Shown here piece by piece: positions 44,776 to 64,000 of a DNA stretch of 64,000 nucleotides. The translations under genes were made by a program, and so were the position numbers. This DNA comes from Rhodovibrio salinarum DSM 9154. GTDB lineage: Bacteria; Pseudomonadota; Alphaproteobacteria; Kiloniellales; Rhodovibrionaceae. The stretch lies in assembly GCF_000515255.1 (NCBI RefSeq), contig NZ_KI911559.1, positions 1 to 64,000 on the forward strand. The letters are read 5' to 3'. Each line of letters opens with the position of its first letter. Positions within the stretch are counted from its first letter, which is position 1. A model generated the notes under the pieces. The model was not told the origin of the DNA, ran no database searches, and saw only the letters and a list, made by a program, of their open reading frames with translations.

Positions 44776-44825
44776 GGGGGATCGGCTCCGGTGTGCAACC
44801 ACCTGCTGAAGACAGCGCTGCGCGC

Positions 44826-47745: not shown

Positions 47746-48450
47746 CTAGTTTTGCGCCCAGTTCGGGGCGCTATCGGATTGCAGGCGGCTTTCCAGCTTG
47801 GCGAGCAAGGCTTCGACCCGGCCGCCATTCTGCTCGATCACGCTGGCATACTCGCTGCGCAGCGTGATCGCCATGGAGACCCCCTCGGCCATGATGTCGA
47901 CGATCTGGTAGCCCCCATCGCCGGTCGGACGAACCCGCCAGGCGAGTTTGACCGGGGCACGGTCGGGCACGTCGACACGGGTGATCACGCGCGCAATGCC
48001 CTGGGCCTGCGGGTCCGCGATCGCCCGGTCGATCGTCACCTGGTCCATCGAGAGGTGCTGGAAGGTAGGCAGGAAGCGCGTCAGCGCGACTTCGCGCAGC
48101 AGGGCCATGAAACGCTCCCGCTGGTCCTCGCTCGCCACGCGCCAATAGCGCCCCAGCACGAAACGCGCCAGTTCGCGTCCGGCGAAATTCTCCTTCAGGA
48201 GCCGGCGTCCGCGCTCGGCCCGCTGCTCGGGGCTGATGTCCTGGGCGCTCAACTGGTCGATCGCAGTGCGCGACAGCTCGGTGATATAGTTCGCCGCGCC
48301 CTCAGCCAGTGCGTCGTCGCTCTGCGCCGCATGAACGCTGCCAGAGCCGGAGAAGCCAAGCAGCAGCGCCACGAACCCGGCCGCAAAGGTGCACAGCAGA
48401 TTGCGCCGGCACAGTCCCGCAACTCGGTGCACGCCATCCTGAATCGTCAT
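47746..48450 (-). CDS. MlaC-like phospholipid/lipid-binding periplasmic protein
   Basis: 234 residues from the ATG at 48450. A signal sequence (LLCTFAAGFVALLLGFSGSG, ending HAA) precedes the MlaC/Ttg2D domain: NYITELSRTAIDQL, then RYWRVASEDQRERFMALLRE, TFQHLSMDQVTIDRAIADPQ and YQIVDIMAEGVSMAITLRSE. MlaC shuttles phospholipid across the periplasm; HpnM homologues go with hopanoid MMPL exporters. The mla permease genes are not adjacent. It is divergent from the polyene cluster, which has an MMPL exporter but no visible LolA-like carrier. Confidence 0.87.
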   Translation of the reverse strand: MTIQDGVHRVAGLCRRNLLCTFAAGFVALLLGFSGSGSVHAAQSDDALAEGAANYITELSRTAIDQLSAQDISPEQRAERGRRLLKENFAGRELARFVLGRYWRVASEDQRERFMALLREVALTRFLPTFQHLSMDQVTIDRAIADPQAQGIARVITRVDVPDRAPVKLAWRVRPTGDGGYQIVDIMAEGVSMAITLRSEYASVIEQNGGRVEALLAKLESRLQSDSAPNWAQN

Positions 48451-48696: not shown

Positions 48697-48975
48697 GTGA
48701 GCGTCACCGAGCACAGCAAATCTGAACTGGAACAAGAACTCGCGGAAGCGATGGTGCGGGTGCTCGAGCTTGAGGTATCGACCGATGAAATCGATCCCGA
48801 CGCCGCCCTGTTCGGCGAAGGGCTGGGCCTGGATTCCATCGACGCGCTGGAGTTGTCGTTGGAGATCACCCGGCGCTACGGCGTTGAGATCAGGGGAGAG
48901 GACGACCGCAACGATCGGATCTTCGCGTCCCTGCGCGCGCTGGCGAGCCACGTGCAGGAAAACCGCACGAAATGA
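48697..48975 (+). CDS. acyl carrier protein of the polyene cluster
   Basis: 92 residues from a GTG with AGAGG upstream. The phosphopantetheine serine is S47 in GEGLGLDSIDALEL. It carries the growing polyene as a thioester. It is the first gene of the plus-strand block; textbook aryl polyene clusters carry two carrier proteins in tandem, here only one. Confidence 0.93.
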   Translation: MSVTEHSKSELEQELAEAMVRVLELEVSTDEIDPDAALFGEGLGLDSIDALELSLEITRRYGVEIRGEDDRNDRIFASLRALASHVQENRTK

Positions 48976-48988
48976 CCTCGGAATCGAC

Positions 48989-49684
48989 ATGACCGCAACC
49001 GGCGCGGCGCGGCCCGACGCGCCCGAACGCGCCAGCACCCGCACGCTGCTCGCCCGCGCGCTGCTCGCCCTGAGCGCGTTGGTCGGCGTTCACTTGGCCG
49101 TACTCGCCGACCGCAGCGCGCTCGCCTTGGCGTGCCTGATCTGGGGGGTGGCTGCTGCGCTGCTGCTGAACGCGCTCAGCGCGCACGGTCGCAAGCGCGC
49201 GCTACTCGGCGGCTTGGCCGTTCTTGTGGCTGTGCTCGGCGCGCTGCAGGCCAGCGCACCGGCGTTCGATCCACGCCTTGCGCTGGTGTTGCCGCCCACG
49301 CTCGGCAATCTCACGGTCAGTGGCGTGTTCGCCTACACCCTGCTGCCCGGGCACGAGCCGGCGATCCTGCGGGTCGCACGCGTTTCCCGCGGGCAGGTGC
49401 CGGCGGACCTCGCCGCCTATGCCGTCAAGGTCACCCGCGTCTGGGCCATCCTGCCCGCCGCGATCATGCTGGCGGCGCTGAGCGCCTTGGCCCTGGGTGG
49501 GCTCGACGCCTGGTCCTGGATCGCCAACGTCGCCAATCCGGTGCTGTTGGTTGCGACCTTTCTGGGCGAACATGCCGTACGCGGCTGGAAGATGCCGCAG
49601 TACGGCCGTCCCTCGGTGTTCTGGACCCTGTCGGTGATGCTGGACAAGCGTGCGTGGCCGCTGCCACAACGCGGCCATGCATAA
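48989..49684 (+). CDS. membrane protein of the COG4648 type in polyene clusters
   Basis: 231 residues from the ATG at 48989. About five to six membrane segments (LLARALLALSALVGVHLAVL, ALACLIWGVAAALLLNAL, LLGGLAVLVAVLGAL, and others), with YAVKVTRVWAIL and the end FLGEHAVRGWKMPQYGRPSV. The same kind of membrane protein is found between the carrier protein and ligase genes of aryl polyene clusters. Its role is unknown. The stop overlaps the ligase start by 8 bases. Confidence 0.82.
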   Translation: MTATGAARPDAPERASTRTLLARALLALSALVGVHLAVLADRSALALACLIWGVAAALLLNALSAHGRKRALLGGLAVLVAVLGALQASAPAFDPRLALVLPPTLGNLTVSGVFAYTLLPGHEPAILRVARVSRGQVPADLAAYAVKVTRVWAILPAAIMLAALSALALGGLDAWSWIANVANPVLLVATFLGEHAVRGWKMPQYGRPSVFWTLSVMLDKRAWPLPQRGHA

Positions 49685-51077
49685 CGAAAGTGCCCAACCC
49701 GCCGATGATGCCCCGGCCTGGCCGGTCTTCACACCCTACGACCCGGCACGTCCGGCATTTCATACCGATCAAGGTCCGGTCACGCAGGGCACTGTTCTGG
49801 CACGTGCGCAGGCGCTCGCGCGGCGGCTGAGCGCGGACCTGCCCCCCGAAGCGCAGGTCGCCAACTACTGTGAATCCCGGATCGCCTTCACGGTCGCATT
49901 GATCGGCGGCTGGCTGGCCGGCCGGTCCGTCGTGTTGCCACCGGACCGGACCGAGCGCAATCTGCAGCTTCTGCGCGAACGCCTCGACCCACTGGTTGTG
50001 CTCGCGGAACAGGGGTGCACGCTGACCCTGCCGACCCCCATTCATGTCGACACGATCGCCCCAGACGGCCCGCCACCGGCCGAACCGCCAAGCCTGCCGG
50101 GCGACCTTCTGGCCGCGCGCGTGTTCACCTCCGGCTCCACCGGCACGCCGCAGATGAACGACAAGACCTGGGCGATGCTGGCGGCGGCGGGCAAGACCAT
50201 CCCGGCGATGCTGACGCTCGACCGGCTGGAGACGGCCCACGTGGTCGCCACCGTGCCCAGCCAGCATATGTACGGCTTCGAGACGACCGCCCTGATGCCC
50301 CTGCAAGGCGGCGCGGCCGCCTATGCCGACCGGCCGATCTACACCGCCGACGTCGCCCACGCGCTGCATTCGGTGCCGGCCCCGCGTGTGCTGGTCACGA
50401 CGCCGACCCATCTGCGCGCCTTGATCGAGAGCGACACCGTCCTCCCCGCAATCGACCACGTGATCTCCGCCACCGCGCCCCTGGGGTCCGAACTGGCCCA
50501 GGCCGCCGAGCACCGGCTGTCGGCACCGGTGCGGGAGATCTATGGCTTCACCGAGGCCGGCTCGGTCGCCGGGCGGCGCACGCTGGACGGCGACGTCTGG
50601 CAGATGCGCAGCGACTACATCGCCCGGACCGTCCAGGGACCGGAAGGGCCCCAGGCGCTGGTGCACTGCCCGACACTCGGCCAGGACGTCGCCTTCCCGG
50701 ACGTCGTCGAGGTCATGGACGGCAACCGCATCCGCCTCAAGGGACGAGCGCAGGATCTGGTCAACGTCGCCGGCAAGCGGGCCTCGCTCAGCGGACTGGC
50801 GGCGCAGTTGATGGAGATCGACGGCGTGCGCGACGCCGCCTTCGTGCAACCTGACGCCGACACCGGCGCCGGACAGATCGGCCGGCTGATCGCGTTCGCC
50901 GTTGCACCTGATTGGGACCGAGAGGCGCTGCGCACGGCGCTGAAACAGCGCCTGGACCCCGCGTTTGTGCCGCGCCGGCTGATCCTGCTCGACCACCTGC
51001 CACGCAACGCCACCGGCAAGCTGTTGCGTCAGGATCTGGAGGCCTTGCTGGACACCCACCTCGGCCGGCGCTCATGA
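49677..51077 (+). CDS. acyl/aryl-AMP ligase of the polyene cluster
   Basis: 466 residues. AMP-binding fold with P-loop FTSGSTGTP (150-158), an APLG-like and EIYGFTEAGSVAGRR core motif near 290, and the C-terminal lysine K448 in RNATGKLLRQDL. It activates the starter acid (4-hydroxycinnamic-type in aryl polyenes) to load the carrier protein. An ammonia-lyase that would make the aryl starter is not in the window. The chain is a little short of the usual 500 or more residues. Confidence 0.9.
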   Translation: MHNESAQPADDAPAWPVFTPYDPARPAFHTDQGPVTQGTVLARAQALARRLSADLPPEAQVANYCESRIAFTVALIGGWLAGRSVVLPPDRTERNLQLLRERLDPLVVLAEQGCTLTLPTPIHVDTIAPDGPPPAEPPSLPGDLLAARVFTSGSTGTPQMNDKTWAMLAAAGKTIPAMLTLDRLETAHVVATVPSQHMYGFETTALMPLQGGAAAYADRPIYTADVAHALHSVPAPRVLVTTPTHLRALIESDTVLPAIDHVISATAPLGSELAQAAEHRLSAPVREIYGFTEAGSVAGRRTLDGDVWQMRSDYIARTVQGPEGPQALVHCPTLGQDVAFPDVVEVMDGNRIRLKGRAQDLVNVAGKRASLSGLAAQLMEIDGVRDAAFVQPDADTGAGQIGRLIAFAVAPDWDREALRTALKQRLDPAFVPRRLILLDHLPRNATGKLLRQDLEALLDTHLGRRS

Positions 51078-51388
51078 GCGAGCCAGCGCTCACGACCCAA
51101 CTGCGCGTCGACCCGGACGATCCCTGCCTGACCGGACATTTCCCCGACCGTCCGGTGGTCCCGGCCGCCGCCATCCTGGACCGTCTGGCCGCCTGGCTGG
51201 AAACCGCCACGGCGGTGGAAGTCACCGGTGTCGACCGCGCCCGGATCAAGCTGGCGCTGCTGCCCCAGGTCACCTGGCAGGTGCACGCGGGACCGCATGA
51301 TCAGGGCCGGATCAAGGTCACCTGCACACAAGACGACCGCACCGCGCTCAACGCGACCTTTACTGTCGCCGCACGCGACCAACGCTAA
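51074..51388 (+). CDS. hot-dog dehydratase-like protein (ApeI type)
   Basis: 104 residues, one hot-dog domain. The motif LTGHFPDRPVVPAAAILD holds the catalytic-type His of FabA/FabZ-like dehydratases. Start overlaps the ligase stop by 4 bases. In aryl polyene clusters a short hot-dog protein in this place (ApeI) takes part in the elongation cycle with the larger dehydratase. Confidence 0.87.
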   Translation: MSEPALTTQLRVDPDDPCLTGHFPDRPVVPAAAILDRLAAWLETATAVEVTGVDRARIKLALLPQVTWQVHAGPHDQGRIKVTCTQDDRTALNATFTVAARDQR

Positions 51389-51396
51389 AATCCGCC

Positions 51397-52356
51397 ATGC
51401 GCCGCAGTCCGGCCGAGAACACCGACATCCAGCAGCAGTGGCGCCATCTGCCCGAACGCGGCACGCCGGGCATTACACGTTTCTATCTGCACCTGTGCCT
51501 GACACTCGGCCGCACGGCCGCGCGGCCGATCCTCTACGCCATCGCGCTCTATTTCCAGCTGTCCACGCCGGTCGCCCGGCGGGCCTCCCGGCGCTATCTG
51601 GCGCGCGTCCTTAACCGGCGCGCGACGACGCTGGACACCTTCCGTCACATCCTGACCTTCGCCACCACGATCATGGACCGGGTGTTCTTCCTCTCCGGTC
51701 GCGATCGGGCGCTCAAGGTCTCGCTCCACGGCGCCGAACACTTCGACGCCCTGCGCGCGCAGGGACGCGGGTTCTTCCTGATGAGCGCGCACCTCGGCAG
51801 TTTCGAGACGATGCGCGCATTGGGGCGCGCGCACGGTGACCTGCCGATCAAGATTCTCATGTACGTCGATAACGCCACGCGGCTGAACCAGGTGCTGGCC
51901 GAACTGAACCCGGAGGTGATGGCGAACGTGATCCCGCTCGGCCGCCCGGATGCCATGCTGGAGGTCCGCGACTGGATTCAACAAGGCGGCATCGTTGGCA
52001 TCCTGGCCGACCGCAGCACGGCCAACGAAAAGCTGACCAACGTCGACTTTCTGGGAGCCCCCGCACCCTTCCCGCTTGGCCCCTGGCTGCTCGCCGCGAC
52101 GCTGGAAGCGCCAGCGTTGACGAGCTTTGCGCTCTACCGCGGCAACGGACACTACGAGGTCCACTTCGAGCCGTTCGCCGATCCCGTCACCGCCCCGCGC
52201 GGCGCGCGACGCGAGGCTGCCACGGCGTATGCCCGTGCCTACGCCGACCGGCTGGCCACCTATTGCCAGGCCGCCCCCTACAACTGGTTCAACTTCTACG
52301 ACTTCTGGGGCGACGAGCGCCGCAACGCCGCCACGCCCGACAGCCAAGAGGGCTAG
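51397..52356 (+). CDS. LpxL/HtrB-type acyltransferase of the polyene cluster
   Basis: 319 residues. Lysophospholipid-acyltransferase fold with the catalytic motif FFLMSAHLGSFETMRAL (H-x4-E), then ILADRSTANEKLTNVDFLGA. It would esterify the polyene onto a sugar or lipid acceptor at the inner membrane. In the enterobacterial cluster the acyltransferase is fused to a GT2 domain; here the GT2 is a separate gene on the opposite strand (58535-59395). Confidence 0.9.
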   Translation: MRRSPAENTDIQQQWRHLPERGTPGITRFYLHLCLTLGRTAARPILYAIALYFQLSTPVARRASRRYLARVLNRRATTLDTFRHILTFATTIMDRVFFLSGRDRALKVSLHGAEHFDALRAQGRGFFLMSAHLGSFETMRALGRAHGDLPIKILMYVDNATRLNQVLAELNPEVMANVIPLGRPDAMLEVRDWIQQGGIVGILADRSTANEKLTNVDFLGAPAPFPLGPWLLAATLEAPALTSFALYRGNGHYEVHFEPFADPVTAPRGARREAATAYARAYADRLATYCQAAPYNWFNFYDFWGDERRNAATPDSQEG

Positions 52357-52360
52357 CCCG

Positions 52361-54745
52361 GTGCGTGCACGCCTGACCGCCTTGCTCCGACCACTGCTCG
52401 TGCTGGCCTTGCTGGGCGCCCTGGGGGCTGGGCTGCTGAGCCAGGTGCCGATCCGCGCGGACCTCTCGATCCTGCTGCCAGAACGTCAATCGGAGGACCT
52501 GGCCCTGTTGCAGCGTGCGTTGCAGGAAGGGCCGGCCAACCGCACGGTGATGATCGCGCTTCGACCCGTCGATCCGCCGGCCGACGCCAAGGCCCGCACG
52601 GATCAGCTGGCCGAACTCAGCCGCACCATGAAGCGCGCGCTTCAGGACAGCGGCCTGTTCGCGCGCGTCGCCAACGGCAGCCTGTCGCTGGACGACGCCG
52701 CACTGCAGCCCTTCCTGGAACACCGCTACCGCCTGAACCCGGCGCTGGCGGCCGACGCGTTCTCGCCCTCCAGCCTTAACCAGGCATTCGACCGGCTGCT
52801 GGTCGAGCTGCGCGGTCTGGGATCGCCCTTGATCGAGCGGATCATGCCGCGCGACCCGACACTGCGCATCTTCGAGGTGGCCCAGCTGTGGCGCGGCGAC
52901 GCCGGCCCGCGCAAGGCAAACGGCGTTTGGGTCGGGCGCGATGGCACGCGCGCGGTGCTGCTGGCGCGCAGCAAGCGCGCGGCGTTCGACGCGGGCGGAC
53001 AGGGCGAGGTCCTGGACGCGATCGACGCCGCCGTTCGCACGGTCGAACAGACGCACGGCGCGATAACGGCCGTACGCTCCGGGCCGTCGGTGATAGCAGT
53101 GGAAAGCCGCAACACAGCCGAATCGGAATCCCGTCGCCTGCTGATCTGGTCGCTCCCCATCGTGGCGTTGATCCTGCTAATCGCCTTTCGCCGGCCAAGC
53201 GTGCTGGTCGCCAGCGCGGTGCCGATTGCTGCCGGCTTCGTCGCCGGCGCGGGTGCCGTGGCAGCCGTCTTTGGGGAAATTTTGGCGCCCACGCTGGGGT
53301 TCGGGGCGATCCTGATCGGGGTAGGCGTGGACTATCCCCTGCATCTGTTCGCTCACCGCCGGCCCGAGGAGCCCCCAACGCACACCGCCCGGCGGATCTG
53401 GCCGGCGCTGGCGCTGGGCGCGGCCACCACGGCAATCGGTTTCCTGCCGCTGGTGCTGTCCAGCTTCCCCGGCGTGGCACAGCTGGGCGTGTTCACCCTG
53501 GCCGGCCTGCTGGTCGCCGCCGGGGGCGCCCGCTGGATATTGCCCTGGCTGATGCAGCCGGTGCATCTGCCCCCGGCGGAAGCGGTGTGGGACCGGCTGG
53601 CACCGCTGCACGCCGCCCTCGGCCGGCTGCGCCTGCCAACCCTGTTGCTGACGGCCGTGGCGGCCGGCTGGCTGGCGTTGCTGCCGGGATCGCAGGTCTG
53701 GCAGCAGGATCTGCGCGGTCTGAGCCCGATCTCGGAAACCCGCAAACAGGTCGACCAATCCCTGCGCGCCGACCTGGCGGCGACGAACCCGCGCTACCTG
53801 CTGGCCATCGACGCGCCGGATATGGAGACGCTGCTGCAGCGTCAGGAAGCCCTGCAGCCGACCCTGGACAAGCTGATCGCGGACGGGGCGGTGGCGCAGG
53901 TCGATCTGCTGGCCCGCTACCTGCCAAGCGCGGCCCGCCAGCGCGCCCGTCTGGCGTCCCTGCCCGACGCCGCAACGCTGCGCCAGCGGCTGGACCGCGC
54001 GCTCGCCGACCAGCCATTTTCGCCCGGGACATTCGCCCCTTTCGTCACCGACGTTGCGGCGGCCAAGGCAGCCGGCCCGCTGACGCCTTCGGAGATCGCG
54101 GCACCGCTACTGCGCAGCCGCCTCGACACGCTGGCGGTGGAAACCACGCACGGCCAGGTCCGGGGCTTCGGCTTCTTCGAGGGGCTACGCGACGAAGCGC
54201 GGCTGCGCCATGCTTTGGCACACGTCGACGTGCCCGGCGTACGCCTGCTCGACCTCAAGGCGGAGACGGAAGCCCTGATGCAGGGGTATCGGGATGAAAC
54301 GCTGCGCTGGATCGCGGTGGGCGCCTTGCTTGGCCTCGGCGCCCTTGCGATCGGCCTGCGCGGGGCGCGCGCGGTCGGACAGGTCGGCGCGTCGGTGCTG
54401 GTCTCGGTCACGCTCTCGGCTGCGCTGCTGGTCGCGCTCGGCACGCCGTTGACGCTGTTCCATCTACTCGGCCTCATGGTGGTCGCAGGGCTGGGGCTGG
54501 ACTACGCGATTTTTCTGCGCCAAGCCGTCCGCGATGGCGCCAACAGCCCCGAGGCCGGGCGGGATGGCCGGCGCAGTGTGGCGATCTGTGCGCTCACCAG
54601 CCTCTCGGTCTTCGCCATTCTGTCGACCGCCGAGATCCCGATGCTGGGGCAATTGGGCGTCACCGTGGCCCTGGGGGCCGGCGTGTCGCTTTTGAGCGCG
54701 CTGGTGTTCACAGGCGCCCTGCGGACCCATGTTACAGTGTCCTAG
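52361..54745 (+). CDS. MMPL/RND-type exporter of the polyene cluster
   Basis: 794 residues from a GTG. Twelve membrane segments in two halves. Each half has the conserved Asp-Tyr in its proton-relay helix: GVGVDYPLHLFAHR (first) and GLGLDYAIFLRQA (second). Large periplasmic loops follow the first and seventh helices. This resembles HpnN/ActII-3-like MMPL exporters, which move lipids to the outer membrane. Start four bases past the acyltransferase stop. Confidence 0.92.
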   Translation: MRARLTALLRPLLVLALLGALGAGLLSQVPIRADLSILLPERQSEDLALLQRALQEGPANRTVMIALRPVDPPADAKARTDQLAELSRTMKRALQDSGLFARVANGSLSLDDAALQPFLEHRYRLNPALAADAFSPSSLNQAFDRLLVELRGLGSPLIERIMPRDPTLRIFEVAQLWRGDAGPRKANGVWVGRDGTRAVLLARSKRAAFDAGGQGEVLDAIDAAVRTVEQTHGAITAVRSGPSVIAVESRNTAESESRRLLIWSLPIVALILLIAFRRPSVLVASAVPIAAGFVAGAGAVAAVFGEILAPTLGFGAILIGVGVDYPLHLFAHRRPEEPPTHTARRIWPALALGAATTAIGFLPLVLSSFPGVAQLGVFTLAGLLVAAGGARWILPWLMQPVHLPPAEAVWDRLAPLHAALGRLRLPTLLLTAVAAGWLALLPGSQVWQQDLRGLSPISETRKQVDQSLRADLAATNPRYLLAIDAPDMETLLQRQEALQPTLDKLIADGAVAQVDLLARYLPSAARQRARLASLPDAATLRQRLDRALADQPFSPGTFAPFVTDVAAAKAAGPLTPSEIAAPLLRSRLDTLAVETTHGQVRGFGFFEGLRDEARLRHALAHVDVPGVRLLDLKAETEALMQGYRDETLRWIAVGALLGLGALAIGLRGARAVGQVGASVLVSVTLSAALLVALGTPLTLFHLLGLMVVAGLGLDYAIFLRQAVRDGANSPEAGRDGRRSVAICALTSLSVFAILSTAEIPMLGQLGVTVALGAGVSLLSALVFTGALRTHVTVS

Positions 54746-56013
54746 TGACAGAGTCGGCCTTTGACCATCATCCACGGACCCGCTCGCCCGTGACCCCGCT
54801 TGCCATCACCGCGCTCTCGACCGTCAATGCGCTTGGCATCGGCCTCGATGCCACGGCGGAGGGCCTGTGGGCGAACCGTATTGCCCTGCGCCCCTGCGAC
54901 TATGAGGATGCGCACATCGACACCCACATCGGCCGGGTGCCCGGGGTGGAGGACGTGACGCTGCCCACGGCGTTCGCCCGCTTCGACTGCCGCAACAACC
55001 GCCTGGCGGAGATGGCGGTCCGCGCCGATGGCTTCGAAGGGGCGGCACAGGCCGCGATCCGGCGCTATGGCGCGCACCGGGTCGCCCTGATCCTGGGCAC
55101 CTCGACCTCCGGCGTCCGGGCGGGCGAAGTCGCATTTGCCAGGCGCGACCCGAAAACAGACGCGCTCCCGGACGACTTCCGCTTCCACGAAACCCACGAT
55201 CACCATGCCCTGGCCTGGTATGTGTCGGAACGGCTCGGCATCGCGGGACCGACGATGACGGTCTCCACCGCCTGCTCCTCTTCGGCCAAGGTCTTTGCCG
55301 ATGCCCATCAGTTAATCGAGGCCGGGTTGGTCGATGCCGCGATCGTCGGCGGGGCGGACTCGCTCTGTCTGATGACGCTGTACGGCTTCAAATCGCTGGA
55401 CCTGCTGGACACCGGCCCGGCCCGGCCGAACGACGCGGACCGGCGCGGCATCTCGATCGGCGAGGGCGCCGGCCTGGCCCTGGTCGAGCGCGAGGTCGGC
55501 GAGCGCCCGGCACTGGCCCGATTGCTCGGCTACGGCGAAAGCTCGGACGCCCACCACATGTCCGCCCCGCACCCCACCGGTCTGGGCGCGGAGCTATCGA
55601 TGCGTGCGGCACTCGAGCGCGCTGGCTTGGACCCTGGCGCGGTGGACTACATCAACCAGCACGGCACCGGCAGCACGCAAAACGACCAAAGCGAGACCCA
55701 GGCGATTGCCCGGGTGTTCGGCCCCCAACTGCGCTGCAGTTCCACCAAGGGCGCGACCGGCCATACGCTGGGCGCGGCCGGGATCATCGAAACGGCGATC
55801 TGTATCTGCGCGCTGACCCGGGGGTTCCGACCGGGCAACAGTAACCTGGAAACGCTGGACCCCGAGATTCCCACCACCGTGCAGCGCGCGAGCGAAGCGG
55901 CGAGCATCGACGTTGTGCTGATGAACTCCTTCGGTTTCGGCGGCAGCAACTGCAGCCTGCTGCTCGGCCACGGCGATGCCAGCGTGTCGGTTCCGGAGGC
56001 GCGCCAGCCATGA
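54745..56013 (+). CDS. beta-ketoacyl synthase of the polyene cluster
   Basis: 422 residues from a GTG overlapping the exporter stop by one base. Complete catalytic triad: C177 (VSTACSSSAKVF), H306 (NQHGTGSTQN) and H340 (STKGATGHTLGAAG). It condenses malonyl units in chain growth. It is paired with the next gene, a chain-length-factor-like ketosynthase, as in the ApeO/ApeC heterodimer. Confidence 0.95.
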   Translation: MTESAFDHHPRTRSPVTPLAITALSTVNALGIGLDATAEGLWANRIALRPCDYEDAHIDTHIGRVPGVEDVTLPTAFARFDCRNNRLAEMAVRADGFEGAAQAAIRRYGAHRVALILGTSTSGVRAGEVAFARRDPKTDALPDDFRFHETHDHHALAWYVSERLGIAGPTMTVSTACSSSAKVFADAHQLIEAGLVDAAIVGGADSLCLMTLYGFKSLDLLDTGPARPNDADRRGISIGEGAGLALVEREVGERPALARLLGYGESSDAHHMSAPHPTGLGAELSMRAALERAGLDPGAVDYINQHGTGSTQNDQSETQAIARVFGPQLRCSSTKGATGHTLGAAGIIETAICICALTRGFRPGNSNLETLDPEIPTTVQRASEAASIDVVLMNSFGFGGSNCSLLLGHGDASVSVPEARQP

Positions 56014-56807
56014 TCGAGACCACCCTCCTCGGCATCGGTCTGCACGGCCCCGGCATGGCCGGCTGGGCGGACGGCGGCGCGGTCCTGGCCGGCCGTGTGC
56101 CTTACGACCCCGCCATCACCCCGCCGCCGCAACCCGAGAACCTGAGCCCGCGGGAACGTCGGCGGGTGTCCCAGGCGGTGCGCCTGGCACTGGCCGTGGG
56201 ACAGGAATCCGTGCGCCATGCCCGTGTCGACCCAGGCGAGCTGCCGTCGGTGTTCGGCTGGGCGCATGGCGATGGCGCAACCGTCCAGCGCATCCTGATG
56301 GAGCTGTCGACCGACGAGCGCCACGTCTCGCCCAAGGACTTCCACCACTCGGTGCACAACGTCGCGGTCGGCTATTGGGCGATCGCGACCGGCTGCCACC
56401 GGGCCTGCACCAGCGTATCGGCCGGCGCCGATACCTTCCCCGCTGCGCTATTGAAGGCGATGGCACAGATCCGGGCCGATGGCGACCCGGTCCTGCTCGT
56501 GCTGTGCGATACGCCGTTTCCAGAGCCGCTCAACACCGTCTGCCCGGTCGGGGCGCCACTCGGCCTCGCCTTGGTGCTGGGGCCGCCCAGGCAACCCGGG
56601 GCGAAGGCGATCCTGCGCGCTGACTTCACCGCCGGAGGGACGGAGCCAACACCGCCCGAGATCCCGGCGCTGCGCGAACTGTGGCAGTATAACGCCGCTG
56701 CGCGTGCCCTGCCCGTCCTCACCGCCCTGGCACGCGGCGAGGCCATGCGGGAGGGCCTCCCCTACGGCGCCCACGCTCACCTAGACCTAGAGCTGACGCC
56801 GTGCTGA
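56010..56807 (+). CDS. ketosynthase-like chain-length factor (ApeC-like)
   Basis: 265 residues, only the N-terminal two-thirds of a ketosynthase (Ketoacyl-synt_2 type) and lacking both catalytic histidines. It keeps the dimer core PKDFHHSVHNVAVGYWAIAT and HRACTSVSAGADTFPAALL. C133 sits where ketosynthases have their nucleophile, while most relatives I recall have Ser there. It would set chain length with the active ketosynthase. Four-base overlap with that gene. Confidence 0.85.
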   Translation: MIETTLLGIGLHGPGMAGWADGGAVLAGRVPYDPAITPPPQPENLSPRERRRVSQAVRLALAVGQESVRHARVDPGELPSVFGWAHGDGATVQRILMELSTDERHVSPKDFHHSVHNVAVGYWAIATGCHRACTSVSAGADTFPAALLKAMAQIRADGDPVLLVLCDTPFPEPLNTVCPVGAPLGLALVLGPPRQPGAKAILRADFTAGGTEPTPPEIPALRELWQYNAAARALPVLTALARGEAMREGLPYGAHAHLDLELTPC

Positions 56808-57238
56808 ACGGCGGACTGCTGGACCGCGCGGGCATCGCCGCGCGCATTCCGCACGCCGGGGCGATGGTGCTGCTGGACACGGTGGTCGCCAGCGACGGCA
56901 CGACGATCCATGCCCGCACCGACAGCCATCGGCGCCCCGATAACCCGCTACGCCGAGACGGTCGGCTGCACGCGATCGCCGGCAGCGAATACGGTGCGCA
57001 GGCGGCCGCCGTACATGGCCCCCTGCAAGCCGGCGCGCACGCCGTTGCCCAACCGGGCATGGTCGTCTCGGTACGCGAACTGAACTGGACGCGGGCGCGG
57101 CTGGACGATATCGACGGCCCGCTCGACGTGCACGCGACCTGCCTGCTGGCGACCCGGCAGCAGCTCGCCTATGCCTTTACCCTGGCGCACGCGGGCACGA
57201 CGCTGGTCGAAGGAGAGGTCGGAATCATCCTGTCATGA
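56801..57238 (+). CDS. hot-dog 3-hydroxyacyl dehydratase (ApeP type)
   Basis: 145 residues from a GTG. ARIPHAGAMVLLDTVVASDG carries the catalytic His and Asp stretch, and HAIAGSEYGAQAAAVHG the Glu-x-x-Ala-Gln helix of the FabA/ApeP group. It dehydrates 3-hydroxyacyl carrier-protein intermediates to extend the conjugated chain. Overlaps the chain-length-factor gene by 7 bases. Confidence 0.88.
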   Translation: MLNGGLLDRAGIAARIPHAGAMVLLDTVVASDGTTIHARTDSHRRPDNPLRRDGRLHAIAGSEYGAQAAAVHGPLQAGAHAVAQPGMVVSVRELNWTRARLDDIDGPLDVHATCLLATRQQLAYAFTLAHAGTTLVEGEVGIILS

Positions 57239-57248
57239 GCGAGGGCGC

Positions 57249-57983
57249 ATGAGCGAACAACCGCCGCGCCGGGCGCTGGTGACCGGCGGCAGCGGGGCGA
57301 TCGGCGGGGCCATCTGCCGGACCCTGGCCGCCCAGGGCACTGAGGTCATCGTCCACGCCAACACCAACCTTGCCGGTGCCGAAACGGTTGTAGAGGCGAT
57401 CCGCGCCGAGGGCGGCCGGGCGCAAGCGGTCGCCTTCGATGTCACCGACGCGGACGCGACGCAGGCCGCGCTCGAACGGCTCGGCGCGGACGGGACGATC
57501 CGGATCGCGGTGCACGCCGCCGGCATCCACGCCGACGCCACGATGGCCGGCATGGACCGGGCGAGCTGGAACCGGGTCGTCGACGTCTCGCTGAACGGCT
57601 TCTACAACGTCGTGCAGCCGCTCTTGCTGCCGATGACGCGAGGGCGCTGGGGCCGGGTGATCGCGGTTTCCTCGATCTCCGGCATCCTGGGCAACCGTGG
57701 GCAGACCAACTACGCCGCCGCCAAGGCCGGCCAGCACGGCGCGATCAAGTCGCTCGCCCAGGAAGTCGCCAGCCGCGGCATCACCGCCAACGCAGTCGCG
57801 CCGGGCGTGATCGCCACGCCGGACACCGAAGCCAGTTTCGACCCGGCGCGGATCAAGGAGCTGGTCCCGATGCGCCGCGCCGGCCAGCCGGAAGAGGTCG
57901 CCGAGCTGGTCGGCTTCCTCGCCTCCGACAAGGCCTCCTACATCACCGGTCAGGTGATCGCGGTCGCCGGGGGACTGGCTTAG
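57249..57983 (+). CDS. 3-ketoacyl-ACP reductase of the polyene cluster (FabG type)
   Basis: 244 residues. Short-chain dehydrogenase with TGGSGAIG (12-19), S142, Y155 and K159 (NYAAAKAG), and the NAVAPGVIATP segment. It reduces the 3-keto group with NADPH. Last gene of the plus-strand block, ten bases past the dehydratase stop. Confidence 0.94.
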   Translation: MSEQPPRRALVTGGSGAIGGAICRTLAAQGTEVIVHANTNLAGAETVVEAIRAEGGRAQAVAFDVTDADATQAALERLGADGTIRIAVHAAGIHADATMAGMDRASWNRVVDVSLNGFYNVVQPLLLPMTRGRWGRVIAVSSISGILGNRGQTNYAAAKAGQHGAIKSLAQEVASRGITANAVAPGVIATPDTEASFDPARIKELVPMRRAGQPEEVAELVGFLASDKASYITGQVIAVAGGLA

Positions 57984-58010
57984 CGCCGGCTGTCGCCGCC
58001 CCAGTCATCA

Positions 58011-58032
58011 GACACCTAAACGCTTAGGTGTC
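58011..58032. terminator. 9-bp hairpin between convergent genes
   Basis: GACACCTAA (58011-58019) pairs with TTAGGTGTC (58024-58032) around ACGC. It overlaps the stop codon of the lipoprotein gene. No T run; a possible two-way transcription end for the plus-strand block and the lipoprotein. Confidence 0.5.
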
Positions 58033-58491
58033 CGTGCCGTTTGCCGGGCGGATGCTCGACGCTTCGCGGACGATCTCCGTACGGAGGTTCTGGACCCAGC
58101 CGTTGTAGTTGGAGTGGATCTTCCCTTCCGCCGCATCATACTTGAGGTTCGTGCTGTCCTTATAGGTGATCGAGAAAGTCTGGGTGTTGTGCATGATGTC
58201 GACGACAGCGACATGGCTGCGGATCGGCAAGCGGCCGATCAAATGGCCAGGCTGATCCGGGTCGGCGCGCTGGATCTGCCAACCAAGCCTGCCACCCGCG
58301 CGCTTAATGGCGTTTTCGACCTCCATCATCTCCGTCGACGGCGGTGCGGAGAGGGAGGCCTCCTGAACGTTGTAGATATCGGAGGTGCGGCAGCCGGCCA
58401 GCGCGGCGACGAGCAGCACCGCCGCGACAAGGCGGAGCGCCCAGGCGCGCGGATCCAGGCCGGCAGTGGTCGAAGAGATAGTCCCCGTCAT
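58024..58491 (-). CDS. conserved lipoprotein, unknown
   Basis: 155 residues from the ATG at 58491 (GGGGGA upstream). Signal peptide with a lipobox (AALAGC). The body has MEVENAIKRAGGRLGWQIQR, RSHVAVVDIMHNTQTFSITY and YNGWVQNLRTEIVREA, matching a widespread small lipoprotein family with no assigned role (internal IKxAGxxxGW, SxxYSIxY-like, NYNxWxxNL patterns). It sits inside the polyene region on the opposite strand, so it may be part of the export path. Confidence 0.75.
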   Translation of the reverse strand: MTGTISSTTAGLDPRAWALRLVAAVLLVAALAGCRTSDIYNVQEASLSAPPSTEMMEVENAIKRAGGRLGWQIQRADPDQPGHLIGRLPIRSHVAVVDIMHNTQTFSITYKDSTNLKYDAAEGKIHSNYNGWVQNLRTEIVREASSIRPANGTDT

Positions 58492-58534
58492 GATCGTCCC
58501 CCAGTAACGTACAAGCTTGACGCGCGGCCGGCCT

Positions 58535-59395
58535 CTATGGCCGGTGCTCCGCATCTACGGTCCCATGCCGGCGGTCGGCGCGCAATACGCGCACCAAGCC
58601 CGCAGGATCGAAACCGCGGGCCAAGAGCTTGCCCGTCACCATCGCGGTGATCGCCAGGGTATCGGCAAGCGGCCGGTAATAGCTGTGGCGCGGCGGCCGG
58701 GCGGGATAAACGGCGGGCACCGGCACCTCGACGATCCGCCAGCCGCGGCGGGCGGCCTCGATCAGCACCTCGCTCTCGAATACGAAGCCGCTCCGGCGTG
58801 CCGGCAAATCCAGCCGGTCGACCAAGCCGCCCGGATAGACGCGCAGGCCGCACTGCGTGTCCCCGATCCGCTGCCCAGCAGCCCAGGAAATAAAAAAGCC
58901 CGCGATCCGATTGGCGATCCGACGCGCGCGCGGCATTTCAGCCGTATCGTGCACCCGGCTGCCCAGCACTAGCATGTCCGGCGCCGCCCAGCTCAACAGC
59001 CGGGGAATATCGCGGGTACGGTGCTGGCCATCGGCGTCCAGCGTCACGACGGCGTCGAAGCCGGCCGTGCGTGCGGCTGCAAGCCCATCGATCAGGCTCG
59101 TCCCCTTGCCGGCGTTCTCGGCATGGCGGATCAGCTGAACGTCGAGCCGACCCGCTTCCGCCGCCGTGGCGTCGTGGGAGCCGTCGTCCACCACGATCAC
59201 CTCGGCCAGCTGGGCCCGCACCCGCCGGATCAGATCGGCAATCGTGGCCGCTTCGTTGTAAGCCGGGATCAGGGCGACACAGCGACCCACCGACGGGCGC
59301 TCACGCACCAACGCGCCGGGCTCCCCAGCCGGGGCCATCCGGTCGGCTTCCTGCGCGTCCTCCCCCGAATCGAGACTGACGTCGCAGGCGCTCAT
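58535..59395 (-). CDS. family 2 glycosyltransferase of the polyene cluster
   Basis: 286 residues from the ATG at 59395. GT-A fold with ALIPAYNEAATIADLIRRVR, VIVVDDGSHDAT, VTLDADGQHRTRDIP (metal-binding DxD), and SGFVFESEVLIEAARRGWRI. It resembles dolichyl-phosphate-mannose-synthase-like enzymes of aryl polyene clusters that add the sugar head. It overlaps the upstream FAD-enzyme stop by 4 bases, so the two form a minus-strand unit. Confidence 0.88.
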   Translation of the reverse strand: MSACDVSLDSGEDAQEADRMAPAGEPGALVRERPSVGRCVALIPAYNEAATIADLIRRVRAQLAEVIVVDDGSHDATAAEAGRLDVQLIRHAENAGKGTSLIDGLAAARTAGFDAVVTLDADGQHRTRDIPRLLSWAAPDMLVLGSRVHDTAEMPRARRIANRIAGFFISWAAGQRIGDTQCGLRVYPGGLVDRLDLPARRSGFVFESEVLIEAARRGWRIVEVPVPAVYPARPPRHSYYRPLADTLAITAMVTGKLLARGFDPAGLVRVLRADRRHGTVDAEHRP

Positions 59396-60696
59396 TCCGC
59401 CGGCTCCGGCGGCGCGATGGCCGCGGGGCTCTGCTCCGGATCGCGGCGTTGCTCCAGCCAATAGAACAAACGGAAGGCCGCCAACCGCAGGTCCAGGTTG
59501 AGACCGTGGCGGGTGTCGCCGGCCAGCACCGACAGGACCGCCCGGCGCACGCCCAGAAGGTTGCGCGGGTTCATGAACATACGCTGCAACGCCGGCGTGT
59601 TGAACCGGCGGATGAACCAGGAAATCCGCTTCAGATCGCCTTCCACCAGCTTCTGGTGGCGGCGCAACAGGCGCGCCCCGCGCGCGGGATGATCGAGCAG
59701 GCGATCAATCGCCGCGGCAGCCGACTGCGCCCCGATCATCGCCAGGTGCACGCCACTGGAGAACACGGGATCGAGGAAGCAATAGCTATCGCCCAGCAGG
59801 AGATATCCGTCGCCGTACATCCGGTCGGCGCAGTAGCTGTAATTGCCGGTCCCGCGCACCGGGCTCACGCGCTCGGCGTGCTGGACCATCTCCCAGACCT
59901 CGGCACTGCGTTGCAGGGTCTCGGTATAGAAGTCCTCCAGGCTGCCCCGCCGGCGCTTGAAGTGCTCGGGCCCGCAGACAGCGCCGACCGAAACGCGTCC
60001 GTCCGGCAGCGGGATCATCCAGATCCACCCCTGGTCGAACCAGCACACCGCGATGTCGCCGTCGAGCCCCCAGTTGTCCCGTGAGACCCCACGCAAATGG
60101 GCGAAGATCGCAGCGGTGTTGTGCATGCGGTCGGGCTGCCGGTTGGTGAGCTTGCGCGCCAGCAGGCCATCACGCCCGGAGGCGTCGATCACGAAGCGCG
60201 CGCGGTCGGTGCGCCGGCCGATACCGTCGTCCACCGTCAGGACGCTGTCGCCCAGCCTCGGCGCGGCGCTGACCACCTCGGTGCGCTGATGCACGGTCAC
60301 CCCGTTGGCTGCGGCATTGTTCAGCAGCAGGGCATCGAACGACGCGCGCTCGACATGGTAGGCATGTCCCGGGTTGGGATCGAGTGCCTGATCGAAGCGG
60401 AATACCTGGCGGCGGCCATGCTTGGGTGCGACGAACTCCGCCCCCGGCTTGAAGGTGCCCATCGCGCGCACCTGATCGTGCACGCCCAGATCCTCCAGCA
60501 ACGGCACCGTCTTGGGCAGCAGCGATTCACCGACGTGGAATCGGGGATGCTGCGCCTTCTCGTACAGCACAACGGAACGCCCGCGCCGCGCCAGCAAGGT
60601 GGCCACGGTGGCCCCGCCCGGCCCCCCGCCGATGACGGCAACGTCGGCGGGTCCGCTGGGGTCGGGCGCGCCTGAGTCATCGGGCGGTTGGGTCAC
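59392..60696 (-). CDS. FAD-dependent oxidoreductase, halogenase/geranylgeranyl-reductase-like
   Basis: 434 residues from a GTG with GGGGAGA upstream. N-terminal Rossmann motif VIGGGPGGATVATLLARRGR and the second FAD motif HVGESLLPKTVPLLEDLG. It also has GWIWMIP, matching the G-W-x-W-x-I-P signature of flavin-dependent halogenases and relatives, and YLLLGDSYCFLDPVFSSGVH, the common third FAD motif. It could be a monooxygenase or halogenase acting on the aryl polyene, or a reductase. I do not see the lysine of tryptophan halogenases clearly. Confidence 0.85.
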   Translation of the reverse strand: MTQPPDDSGAPDPSGPADVAVIGGGPGGATVATLLARRGRSVVLYEKAQHPRFHVGESLLPKTVPLLEDLGVHDQVRAMGTFKPGAEFVAPKHGRRQVFRFDQALDPNPGHAYHVERASFDALLLNNAAANGVTVHQRTEVVSAAPRLGDSVLTVDDGIGRRTDRARFVIDASGRDGLLARKLTNRQPDRMHNTAAIFAHLRGVSRDNWGLDGDIAVCWFDQGWIWMIPLPDGRVSVGAVCGPEHFKRRRGSLEDFYTETLQRSAEVWEMVQHAERVSPVRGTGNYSYCADRMYGDGYLLLGDSYCFLDPVFSSGVHLAMIGAQSAAAAIDRLLDHPARGARLLRRHQKLVEGDLKRISWFIRRFNTPALQRMFMNPRNLLGVRRAVLSVLAGDTRHGLNLDLRLAAFRLFYWLEQRRDPEQSPAAIAPPEPAE

Positions 60697-61265: not shown

Positions 61266-62873
61266 TCACACCACCCGGCCGTCGCGCAGCCGCACCACGC
61301 GGTCGGCGACATCGAAATAGCGCTCGTCGTGCGAGATCACGATCAGCGTTTTGCCCTGCCGTTGCAGGTCCGGCAGCAGTTCCCGGTAGAAGATCTGACG
61401 GAACGCGGGGTCCTGGTCGGCCGCCCATTCGTCGAACACCATGATCGGCCGGCGTTCCAGATATCCCTGAACCAACGCCAGCCGCCGGCGCTGTCCGCTC
61501 GACAGGTCGAGCGTCGAGAAACGACCTTCGTTCAGGCGGACCTTGTGCGCCAGCTCCAGACGTTCGAGGTAGGCCTGCGCGTCGGCCGCCAGCTCCGGGT
61601 CGTTCTCCGGCAGCTGTTCGAACAGGTGATGGTCGCTGAAGACCGTCGTAAACAGTTGACGGTAATGGTCCCGGTCGGAAGCGGACACGGGCGCGCCGTC
61701 CCACAGCACCTGCCCTTCCGAAGGGGGGTAGAGGGCCATCAGCAGCTTCAGGAGCGTGGTCTTGCCCGACCCGTTCTCCCCCACCACGAACAATATCTCG
61801 CCGGCCCGCACCGTAAGATCAATCGGTCCCAGAACGAACGGGTCCGTGCCTTCGGTTTTGGGAAAACGATAGCTGACGCCCACCAGGCGAATCACCTCGG
61901 GCACGGCAGGCTCGGCGTCCGCTGCGCGCGCGGCCAGATGCGGCTCGGGCGAGGCGAAGCGCGCCGAGAGATCGGCGATCTTCTCGAACGCGACCTTGGC
62001 CCGCGTGACGTTCGCGAGCGACTGCAGCACCTGGTCGACCGGCCCCTTCATATAAAGCAGGACCAGCACGTAACCGCTGAGCACTTCCGCCGGGATCGGC
62101 TCGATCCAGGCGGCCCAGCCGAACAGCGCGCCGATGACCAGGAAGAACAGGGCCGAGCCGACCGCGTTGCCGATCACGAAGGTGTTGATCGCGCGCTGAT
62201 TGACGTCACGGATCCGGGCGATCGTCGGCTCAATCTGCCCGTCCAATAGCTGCGCCCGACGGGTCAGGTTGAGCCGCAGCTCCTTCGCGCCGTCGCTCAA
62301 CACCCGGTAGGCCTTGTGCAGTTCGTCCTCGTGCTGTCGCGCCGTCCAGAAGCCGCGGATGCCGCGACGGGTGATCCGGTATTGGACCGCCGTTCCCATC
62401 GCGAGCAGACACAGCGTCAGAACGAACAGCGGCACCGAGAGAACCGCCATGTAGACGAGACAGCCGAGCACCACCGCGAGCGAGATCACGAAACCGGCAA
62501 ACACGAAGGCCACGTCGCTGATCATATCGACATCGTGCGTCAGTACCGGCATCAGCCGATGGCTCCGGAAACGCTCCAAGGCGTCGATCGGCGCGGACAG
62601 GATCTGGCGGGCCAACTGCCCGCGCACCCGCGCTACCAGCCGCTGCCCGACGATGTTGATGCAGATGTCGGAAGCCACCCGCCCCGCCAGCGTCACCAGG
62701 CACAACCCGGCGAATCCCAGGGCCAATTGGCGCGGCCACGCGCCCGCGGTGTGGAGCGTCTGGTTGATCACCGACAGCAGGGCGACCGTCCCGATGCTAG
62801 CGCACGCACCGCAGACGACCGCCAGCAGCAAGATGCCCGCAAAGGGCCGCAGCAGGCCGACAATCCCTTTCAT
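61266..62873 (-). CDS. cyclic peptide (siderophore) export ABC transporter, fused permease-ATPase
   Basis: 535 residues from the ATG at 62873. Six membrane helices (about 4-270) followed by an ATPase: GENGSGKTT with K371, LSSGQ (457-461), and IMVFDEW Walker B. Layout and size match PvdE/YojI-type exporters that send peptide siderophores to the periplasm. Its start overlaps the FhuF gene stop by 4 bases, so export and iron release are coexpressed. The biosynthetic genes are not in the window. Confidence 0.9.
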   Translation of the reverse strand: MKGIVGLLRPFAGILLLAVVCGACASIGTVALLSVINQTLHTAGAWPRQLALGFAGLCLVTLAGRVASDICINIVGQRLVARVRGQLARQILSAPIDALERFRSHRLMPVLTHDVDMISDVAFVFAGFVISLAVVLGCLVYMAVLSVPLFVLTLCLLAMGTAVQYRITRRGIRGFWTARQHEDELHKAYRVLSDGAKELRLNLTRRAQLLDGQIEPTIARIRDVNQRAINTFVIGNAVGSALFFLVIGALFGWAAWIEPIPAEVLSGYVLVLLYMKGPVDQVLQSLANVTRAKVAFEKIADLSARFASPEPHLAARAADAEPAVPEVIRLVGVSYRFPKTEGTDPFVLGPIDLTVRAGEILFVVGENGSGKTTLLKLLMALYPPSEGQVLWDGAPVSASDRDHYRQLFTTVFSDHHLFEQLPENDPELAADAQAYLERLELAHKVRLNEGRFSTLDLSSGQRRRLALVQGYLERRPIMVFDEWAADQDPAFRQIFYRELLPDLQRQGKTLIVISHDERYFDVADRVVRLRDGRVV

Positions 62874-63622
62874 CGCCCCGCCTGCCGGACCTTGGGGAGC
62901 GGACACAGGCTGCCGCAGGTGTCCACCCCGGCCAGCCGGTAGCGCAGGCAACAGACCTTGCGCCGGCGCACCGGCGTACCGGCGTCGTCGAGATAGCGGA
63001 TGTGGCCGGCGAACGGGCTGGCATCCGCGGCCTCCGGCGCCTGCGGATCGATCCAGCGCCTGGCCGCCGCCAGCGCGGCGCGGTCGGCCTCCGGCCGGGC
63101 GGCGGCGACGCGGACCGCCCATTCGTAATAGTGCGCGGCGTTCCCCCAGAGCAGCCGCGGCGACACACGGCTCCAGCCCGCGAGCGCGGCCACCAGGGGA
63201 CCGAGGTGCCCCGCCATCAGACCTTCCGACAGCAGGTCGTCGGGGGTGCCGGGCGCGGTCGCGCCGGCGTACCGGATCGCCTCGGGTTCGCCGTCCGCGG
63301 ACAGCAGAATCTCCGTCTCCGCGAGGCGCATCGGAAGATGCTGGCCCGCGAGCACGACGAGGGCCACTGTGGGCGGGATCACCGTGCCGAAGTATTTGAG
63401 CGTCCAGAACGAGACCGCAGCCACGCGCGCGTCCGTCGGCCAGCGCGCGGCGAACGGTGTCACTACCCGGTCCAACATGGTGGGGGTCATCAGGTCCGCC
63501 GACTGCACGGCCGGGCGCGGATCGTCCGGGCCAGCCACCTTGCCTTGCAGGACCGCAAGGTCGCCGGTCAGCAGGGCCCCCAGATCCAGGCCCGGCGCGC
63601 GGGCTGTGCGTCCCACGCTCAT
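62870..63622 (-). CDS. fhuF: siderophore-iron reductase FhuF family
   Basis: 250 residues from the ATG at 63622. The C-terminal iron-sulphur motif is CCLRY (C224, C225) then TCGSLCPLP (C236, C240), the [2Fe-2S] site that reduces ferric siderophore in the cytoplasm. The last cysteine pair is spaced x3 rather than the x2 I recall from E. coli FhuF, which may be a local variant. Upstream it overlaps the permease gene by 4 bases. Confidence 0.9.
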   Translation of the reverse strand: MSVGRTARAPGLDLGALLTGDLAVLQGKVAGPDDPRPAVQSADLMTPTMLDRVVTPFAARWPTDARVAAVSFWTLKYFGTVIPPTVALVVLAGQHLPMRLAETEILLSADGEPEAIRYAGATAPGTPDDLLSEGLMAGHLGPLVAALAGWSRVSPRLLWGNAAHYYEWAVRVAAARPEADRAALAAARRWIDPQAPEAADASPFAGHIRYLDDAGTPVRRRKVCCLRYRLAGVDTCGSLCPLPKVRQAGR

Positions 63623-64000
63623 CCCCGGCGCGCCAAAAGCCACAGAAAATACGGCGCGCCGACGAAGGTCGCCAGAATCCCGGCAGGGATCTCGTAGGGG
63701 AAGTGCAGCGACCGGCCGAGCCAATCCGCCGCCACCATGATCGCCGCCCCGATCAGCATCGCGGCCAGAAGTTGGTGGCGGGCCCGCACGAACCCGGCCA
63801 TGCGCGCCATGTGCGGCGCCATCAGACCGACGAAGGTCAAGGGACCGGTCAGCAGGGTGGCACCAGCGGTCAGCACGGCCGAGATCGACAGCAGCAGCAG
63901 CCGGCTCCGGCCGACGCGTACGCCCAGGGCTTGGCTCGTCGTCGCGCCGAGCGGCAAGAGACCCAGCCACCGCACAGTCAACAGGCTCAGCCCCAGGCCG
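63619..64000 (-). CDS. FecCD/FhuB-type iron-siderophore permease, C-terminal part (cut by window edge)
   Basis: 127 residues read in from the right edge. Membrane helices include LLLLSISAVLTAGATLLTGP, the family motif TFVGLMAPHMARMAG, LLAAMLIGAAIMVAADWLGR and a C-terminal FPYEIPAGILATFVGAPYFL. This is the end of a BtuC-like ABC permease that imports the ferric siderophore, most like the second half of FhuB. The start is outside the window. Confidence 0.92.
   Translation of the reverse strand, partial: GLGLSLLTVRWLGLLPLGATTSQALGVRVGRSRLLLLSISAVLTAGATLLTGPLTFVGLMAPHMARMAGFVRARHQLLAAMLIGAAIMVAADWLGRSLHFPYEIPAGILATFVGAPYFLWLLARRG

Follow-up and report, generated by a model that had tools for sequence, protein, structure and literature searches.

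Gene content of the locus

The window analysed here is the first 64,000 nucleotides of the single 4,176,524-base contig of Rhodovibrio salinarum DSM 9154 (genome G000, 99.01% complete). At positions 48697-60696 it carries a block of thirteen genes that, judged by its predicted proteins, is an intact, compact aryl polyene-type pigment cluster. Ten plus-strand genes (48697-57983), overlapping or separated by short gaps, face three minus-strand genes that run from 60696 to 58024, and the convergent ends are 40 bases apart. What sets this locus apart is that the gene for the periplasmic carrier LolA is missing from the cluster, that a lolA gene lies beside a second MMPL exporter gene elsewhere in the genome, and that no source of the aryl acid was matched; the remainder is mostly an ordinary cluster of a known type. 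The features are listed below. Identities are to the Ape proteins of Escherichia coli CFT073, and E-values against these were computed within a set of 18 proteins.

48697..48975 (+): acyl carrier protein (ACP), ApeE-like, with the serine in LDSID; PF00550 and NF006617 above cut-off; ApeE 41% over 81 aa
48989..49684 (+): COG4648-type membrane protein, ApeG-like; ApeG 26% over 99 aa (E 7e-4 by blastp, 8e-7 by phmmer, among the 18 Ape proteins only)
49677..51077 (+): AMP-forming aryl-ACP ligase, ApeH-like; ATG at 49677, alternative GTG at 49650; PF00501 and PF13193; ApeH 26% over 427 aa; motifs TSGSTG and YGFTE
51074..51388 (+): hot-dog dehydratase 1 (DH1), ApeI-like; PF07977 above cut-off, PF22818 below; weak match to ApeI, 28% over 68 aa (E 2e-4 among the 18 proteins)
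51397..52356 (+): LpxL-type acyltransferase; PF03279; aligns with ApeJ residues 263-549, the C-terminal part, at 34%
52357..52360: 4-base gap between the LpxL and MMPL genes, the usual site of lolA in related clusters
52361..54745 (+): MMPL/RND exporter, ApeM-like; PF03176; ApeM 24% over 524 aa; paralogue, by tree, of MMPL2 at C1:3229389-3231782
54745..56013 (+): ketosynthase (KS), ApeO-like; NF006618 above cut-off; 6qsp_A at E 1e-71; ApeO 42%; Cys-His-His motifs
56010..56807 (+): chain-length factor (CLF), ApeC-like; PF13723; 6qsp_B at E 1e-9; ApeC 29% over 188 aa
56801..57238 (+): hot-dog dehydratase 2 (DH2), ApeP-like; nine-sequence profile against 6qsr_B at E 7e-11; PF22817 only at E 0.25
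57249..57983 (+): ketoreductase (KR), ApeQ-like; NF004200 above cut-off; ApeQ 44%
58024..58491 (-): lipoprotein, ApeA-like; Cys after a LAG-type box; alternative start at 58554; ApeA 34% over 123 aa
58535..59395 (-), longer frame to 59461: GT2 glycosyltransferase; PF00535; aligns with ApeJ residues 8-228, the N-terminal part, at 36%
59392..60696 (-): FAD enzyme, like the CmlS-type flavin-dependent halogenases; PF04820 above cut-off; CmlS (3i3l) at E 1e-57; motifs WIWMIP and KPGAEF
47746..48450 (-): MlaC-family periplasmic lipid carrier; PF05494 above cut-off; divergent neighbour whose membership in the system is uncertain

Eleven of the thirteen genes matched E. coli Ape proteins directly: ApeA, C, E, G, H, I, M, O and Q, and ApeJ, which corresponds to LpxL and GT2 together. 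The best solved matches of KS and CLF were the two chains of 6qsp, which we take to be the ApeO-ApeC structure, and the DH2 profile matched a chain of 6qsr, presumably the ApeI-ApeP structure. A single-sequence comparison of DH2 with ApeP gave nothing significant, and the COG4648-type protein had no Pfam match at E ≤ 0.001. The FAD enzyme had CmlS, ChlB4 and other halogenases as its best solved relatives and carries the WxWxIP motif. The window thus holds an ApeO-type KS with an ApeC-type CLF, an ACP with a predicted aryl-ACP ligase, two dehydratases with a KR, and a glycosyltransferase and an acyltransferase in separate genes. The RND/MMPL exporter of Ape clusters is there too, with LolA elsewhere in the genome; we treat LolA as a usual rather than a defining gene of aryl polyene clusters.

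A first-pass annotation of the window had described a reduced aryl polyene-type cluster with a GT2 and an FAD enzyme on the opposite strand. Its assignment of type was confirmed by the structural and Ape matches, and every gene it named proved to be an open frame with the usual motifs; the list had overlooked the ApeA-like lipoprotein gene. A second complete aryl polyene cluster in this genome was rejected: the KS query found three places, and the two outside the window were partial (~250 residues) at 41-42%. Within the window, an ApeR query matched only the ApeO-like KS.

Absences shared with related clusters

The annotation had called the cluster reduced, listed as absent an ammonia-lyase, a thioesterase, a second carrier protein and a LolA-like carrier, and noted that the glycosyltransferase and the acyltransferase are separated. 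These genes are indeed not in the window. Neither a LolA model nor queries with HutH, ApeL, ApeK, ApeN, ApeB or ApeD matched any of its open reading frames (ORFs); ApeF reached 25 bits only, and the matches of ApeF and ApeR were cross-hits to the one ACP and the one KS present. We compared the locus with 85 others, the best 80 of 544 related loci from a contig scan plus five from the window's order. These loci end at 10 kb flanks or at contig ends, so gene presence in them is a lower bound. Among the 80 related loci, the HutH query matched none, the ApeK thioesterase one, and ApeN and ApeB none, and no ORF in the 85 loci carried both GT2 and LpxL when all labels were kept per ORF (61 of the 85 contained both genes). 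Chorismatase was present in at least 24 and the FAD gene in at least 31 of the 80. The 18-gene table of the E. coli cluster lists no ammonia-lyase, and the same paper reports that deletion of the second ACP or of the thioesterase only lowered pigment and that a second ACP is absent from xanthomonadin clusters (PMC8253772). Because related loci likewise go without these genes and the E. coli deletions only reduced pigment, the absence of ammonia-lyase, thioesterase and second ACP and the separation of GT2 from LpxL are ordinary. Of the absences listed by the annotation, the missing LolA stood out as a real oddity, so that "reduced" was only half apt.

We also searched for the missing genes just outside the window. 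Cluster, LolA, chorismatase and HutH queries were unmatched in the 8 kb to its right and in 10 kb at the far end of the contig, which adjoins the window only if the chromosome is circular.

LolA lies beside a second MMPL exporter

Scored with a six-locus model, LolA was present in all 69 of the 85 loci that hold both LpxL and MMPL, within 300 bases of the MMPL gene in 65 of them. Here the LpxL gene stops at 52356 and the MMPL gene begins at 52361, a gap of 4 bases. A genome-wide LolA_3 search yielded a single match of 257 aa at C1:3231789-3232562(-), and 6 bases after it comes the gene for a second MMPL protein of 797 aa (MMPL2, C1:3229389-3231782(-)). A distance of 3.2 Mb on the contig separates this pair (C1:3229389-3232562) from the cluster; on a circular chromosome it would be ~1.0 Mb. 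No other cluster-type genes were seen around the pair. The suggestion that the missing genes might lie elsewhere was therefore right for LolA.

A tree of 24 proteins paired MMPL2 with the window MMPL as sisters (100/99), within a clade that includes the cluster MMPLs of three relatives from the same order, G022, G028 and G029 (100/100). The LolA protein was most similar, at 39-43%, to the cluster LolAs of G022, G028 and G029. Of 59 genomes of the order, five gave MMPL2 matches of at least 467 bits, and these are the five drawn with a KS; two copies occurred only in G000; weaker matches were found in G020 (148 bits) and G054 (145 bits). The KS itself was found in 6 of 61 genomes of the order, one of which, G043, is outside the 59-genome set. 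Because MMPL2 is sister to the window MMPL, LolA is closest to the cluster LolAs of the relatives, and two MMPL copies occur only here, the LolA-MMPL2 pair most likely arose by duplication or transplantation of transport genes of the cluster and was kept while the cluster LolA was lost. Either copy could be the original.

An alternative is that LolA-MMPL2 has been re-purposed for another envelope lipid and that the cluster MMPL works without LolA, perhaps with the divergent MlaC-type carrier. The window MlaC gene, 246 bases upstream of the ACP gene on the opposite strand, is a direct neighbour of the cluster, and the genome has three MlaC matches. MlaC also stands beside chorismatase in four KS-bearing relatives (L094 2-2086, L095 1440-3233, L096 4445-6454 and G028:C425:11515-13248) and in none of the 80 loci of the contig scan, and the cluster MMPL and MlaC show weak similarity, far under the cut-offs, to HpnN and HpnM. 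However, the MlaC proteins of the four relatives form one clade (100/99), and the window MlaC, on a long branch, groups instead with other copies from its own family (93/93). We therefore rejected it as an orthologue of the relatives' cluster MlaC, and its adjacency could be chance. The relatives that have that MlaC also retain LolA in the cluster. We consider this explanation unlikely. A MlaC match was found in 59 of 59 genomes of the order, so presence alone is uninformative, and the adjacency may reflect a second recruitment or chance.

It is also conceivable, and in our view quite improbable, that the two exporters share one pigment through the cluster MMPL and LolA-MMPL2, with MlaC apparently recruited at least twice, in the clade of the relatives and again in the family of the window. 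If this were true, MlaC would serve as another periplasmic carrier of aryl-polyene lipids, whether as an alternative or in addition. A search of the open-licence literature found no publication that brings "aryl polyene" together with MlaC, which is weak evidence. We favour a duplicated or transplanted transport pair and a lost cluster LolA.

By reading, the region about 3 kb upstream of LolA-MMPL2 holds a very long frame that is rich in repeats and resembles a surface protein, and after it an outer-membrane efflux-like gene (L110 8575-9999, L115 2-5503).

Candidate source of the aromatic starter

The only PF00221 match in the genome is HutH, which scored above the hutH cut-off and far below that of FlxA and lies beside hutI. 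It was accordingly rejected as the starter enzyme, and the FlxA-type tyrosine ammonia-lyase that marks flexirubin clusters was not found. In the relatives' loci L094 and L095, a FkbO/Hyg5-type chorismatase (PF21168) is encoded near the FAD gene; enzymes of the XanB2 type yield 3- and 4-hydroxybenzoate (PMC3949708). A search of G000 with an alignment of three chorismatases gave no match. As a control, the same search matched 7 of 12 genomes: G022 and G029, which are in the alignment, and G028, G037, Xanthomonas, Muproteobacterium and Thioalkalivibrio, which are not. Besides G000, the unmatched genomes were G001, G002, G043 and a Nitrospira. We therefore did not file the locus with the XanB2-fed xanthomonadin/arcuflavin subtype. 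UbiC (PF04345) was not found in G000 either; in the control it matched only E. coli among 14 genomes. The first-pass claim that the starter supply must differ thus held in another form, since the gene that sets the locus apart from its order relatives is the chorismatase, with UbiC also not found, and not the ammonia-lyase.

4-Hydroxybenzoate is a precursor of ubiquinone. The genome encodes UbiE and UbiB, and a supply of 4-hydroxybenzoate is therefore expected. Because neither a cluster-type chorismatase nor an aryl ammonia-lyase was found, our simplest guess is that the pool of 4-hydroxybenzoate that serves ubiquinone probably supplies the starter as well. By analogy, the predicted pigment starter in E. 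coli is 4-hydroxybenzoate made by UbiC, from outside the cluster (PMC8253772).

The enzymes might instead build the polyene on a non-standard starter other than hydroxybenzoate. The lack of a match for both chorismatase and UbiC would fit this, as would the identification of the sole ammonia-lyase match as HutH. However, the top scores of the window ligase (446-469 bits) were to ligases of order relatives whose genomes hold chorismatase, its departures from conserved columns were in line with those in compared loci (5 versus 4-7), and UbiB implies a 4-hydroxybenzoate supply. We find a non-standard starter rather improbable and retain the shared 4-hydroxybenzoate pool as the probable source.

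The reading frames appear intact

All thirteen genes are open frames, and the expected motifs are in place in KS (ACSSS, HGTG and GHTLGA), ACP (LDSID) and KR (NYAAAK). The window proteins were aligned with 29 to 85 relatives, and columns conserved at 90% were checked for departures, with five loci for comparison (four for the FAD enzyme). The window protein, followed in brackets by the range in the compared loci, departed at 5 columns in the ligase (4-7), 8 in KS (4-13), 5 in CLF (1-5), 3 in LpxL (0-7), 12 in MMPL (1-14), 5 in KR (2-8), 3 in DH2 (1-6), 1 in ACP (1-2) and 2 in GT2 (0-4). The FAD enzyme departed most, at 14 columns versus 0-11. It is very unlikely that the cluster is partial or decaying and its pigment no longer made, with loss of LolA and chorismatase as the first steps: LolA is missing, chorismatase was not found in the genome, the UbiE-like methyltransferase that adjoins the FAD gene in L094 and L095 was unmatched in the window, and the FAD enzyme exceeds the compared range, but all thirteen frames are open, the Cys-His-His, LDSID and NYAAAK motifs are preserved, the nine further proteins tested are within range, and chorismatase is also unmatched in a Nitrospira genome (G064) that has a similar block.

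A methyltransferase-domain protein (PF13649) is encoded at 44143-44913 (-), ~3.8 kb from the pigment block; at the threshold used it was unlike the UbiE-like enzyme of the relatives.

Proposed pathway and partition of transport

With moderate confidence, we propose a compact aryl polyene locus whose transport genes have been partitioned, with a starter probably drawn from the 4-hydroxybenzoate pool, in a bacterium that bears BchX. The ligase would adenylate an aromatic acid and load it onto the ApeE-like carrier, and KS-CLF, KR and the two dehydratases would extend this starter into a conjugated polyene, which the FAD enzyme may halogenate. GT2, LpxL and the ApeA-like lipoprotein are predicted to attach the polyene to a membrane lipid, and MMPL would move the pigment lipid toward the outer membrane. 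In the proposed partition, the MMPL gene was duplicated and the cluster LolA lost, LolA staying with MMPL2 as a two-gene unit at 3.23 Mb, and the two loci may act together.

Several points weigh against this proposal. The aryl polyene product is predicted from the genes. No route to 4-hydroxybenzoate was found in the genome by searches that covered ammonia-lyase, chorismatase and UbiC and did not include DUF98-type chorismate lyases or tyrosine-derived routes to 4-hydroxybenzoate. The LolA protein is a modest match to LolA_3, at 28.7 bits for a cut-off of 23, and the two MMPLs are just 56-57% identical and may export different lipids. In a crude comparison of upstream 16-mers, only the MlaC-FAD pair beat shuffled sequences, and ACP-LolA did not. 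No upstream motif shared among the ACP, FAD and LolA genes was found. Apart from these points, a promoter search gave no sigma-70-like match, with about one expected by chance.

Few bacterial secondary metabolites are as widespread as aryl polyenes. To our knowledge, the passage of the completed pigment lipid across the periplasm has been little tested. A LolA and a second exporter set apart from the operon, with both exporters kept over a long divergence, offer a natural case for asking which parts act together. That none of the aryl-acid sources tested was matched, despite the presence of ubiquinone genes, bears on how 4-hydroxybenzoate is made in such bacteria.

BchX was matched above cut-off at L112 6503-7459 (G000:C1 about 1046502-1047458), so that a chlorophyllide reductase is encoded. 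On this basis the host is probably an anoxygenic, purple phototroph. "Aryl polyene" was not met in the literature on Rhodovibrio or purple bacteria among the matches listed, which is weak evidence.

Comparison with known clusters and neighbouring genes

The E. coli CFT073 cluster (apeA-R; NC_004431:1143727-1158748) shares the ApeA, C, E, G, H, I, J, M, O and Q matches. Unlike it, the window has ApeJ as two genes, no match to ApeB, D, K or N and an extra halogenase-like gene, and the counterpart of ApeL is elsewhere in the genome. According to PMC3949708, the xanthomonadin/arcuflavin clusters of Xanthomonas and Azoarcus have separate glycosyltransferase, acyltransferase, exporter and halogenase genes, as the window does, and the arc genes of Azoarcus BH72 form two unlinked loci. 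These clusters include a XanB2-type chorismatase and LolA (PMC3949708), whereas here chorismatase was not found and LolA is at 3.23 Mb.

The closest loci were those of the order relatives G028 (L093), G029 (L094) and G022 (L095), whose KS is 64-70% identical to that of the window. L094 and L095 have the same set facing ApeA-like, GT2 and FAD genes; L093 has the biosynthetic side only. All three differ from the window in keeping LolA between LpxL and MMPL, with a single MMPL2-type match per genome. The ligase (ApeH-like) and DH1 (ApeI-like) are fused in one frame in L093 (13773-15563 (-)) and L094 (12569-14227 (-)) and are separate in the window. Chorismatase, a UbiE-like methyltransferase and MlaC lie beside the FAD gene in L094 and L095, and chorismatase and MlaC are on another contig in G028.

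Five Thioalkalivibrio loci (L035, L045, L050, L056 and L065) are likewise compact, with GT2 and ApeA-like genes following KR and, in four of the five, a halogenase-like FAD gene. They differ from the window in that LolA is present and GT2 is on the KS strand; in the one genome searched (G063), chorismatase was at two places outside the locus. They make good candidate loci for natronochrome/chloronatronochrome, a yellow pigment whose genes were described as unidentified in a 2011 genome paper (PMC3368412).

Aryl polyene-type clusters also occurred in Nitrospira (L026, L018 and L064); chorismatase was unmatched in the one such genome searched (G064, with L026). Others were on contigs labelled Candidatus Planktophila (L057) and Candidatus Eremiobacteraeota (L041), which would reflect transfer or wrong binning. 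Adjoining the cluster in the window is an iron-uptake block (61266-63999; L087 2515-6255) with a cyclic-peptide-type ABC exporter, FhuF and a FecCD permease, which continues, by reading, with a TonB-type receptor and a FecR-like gene.

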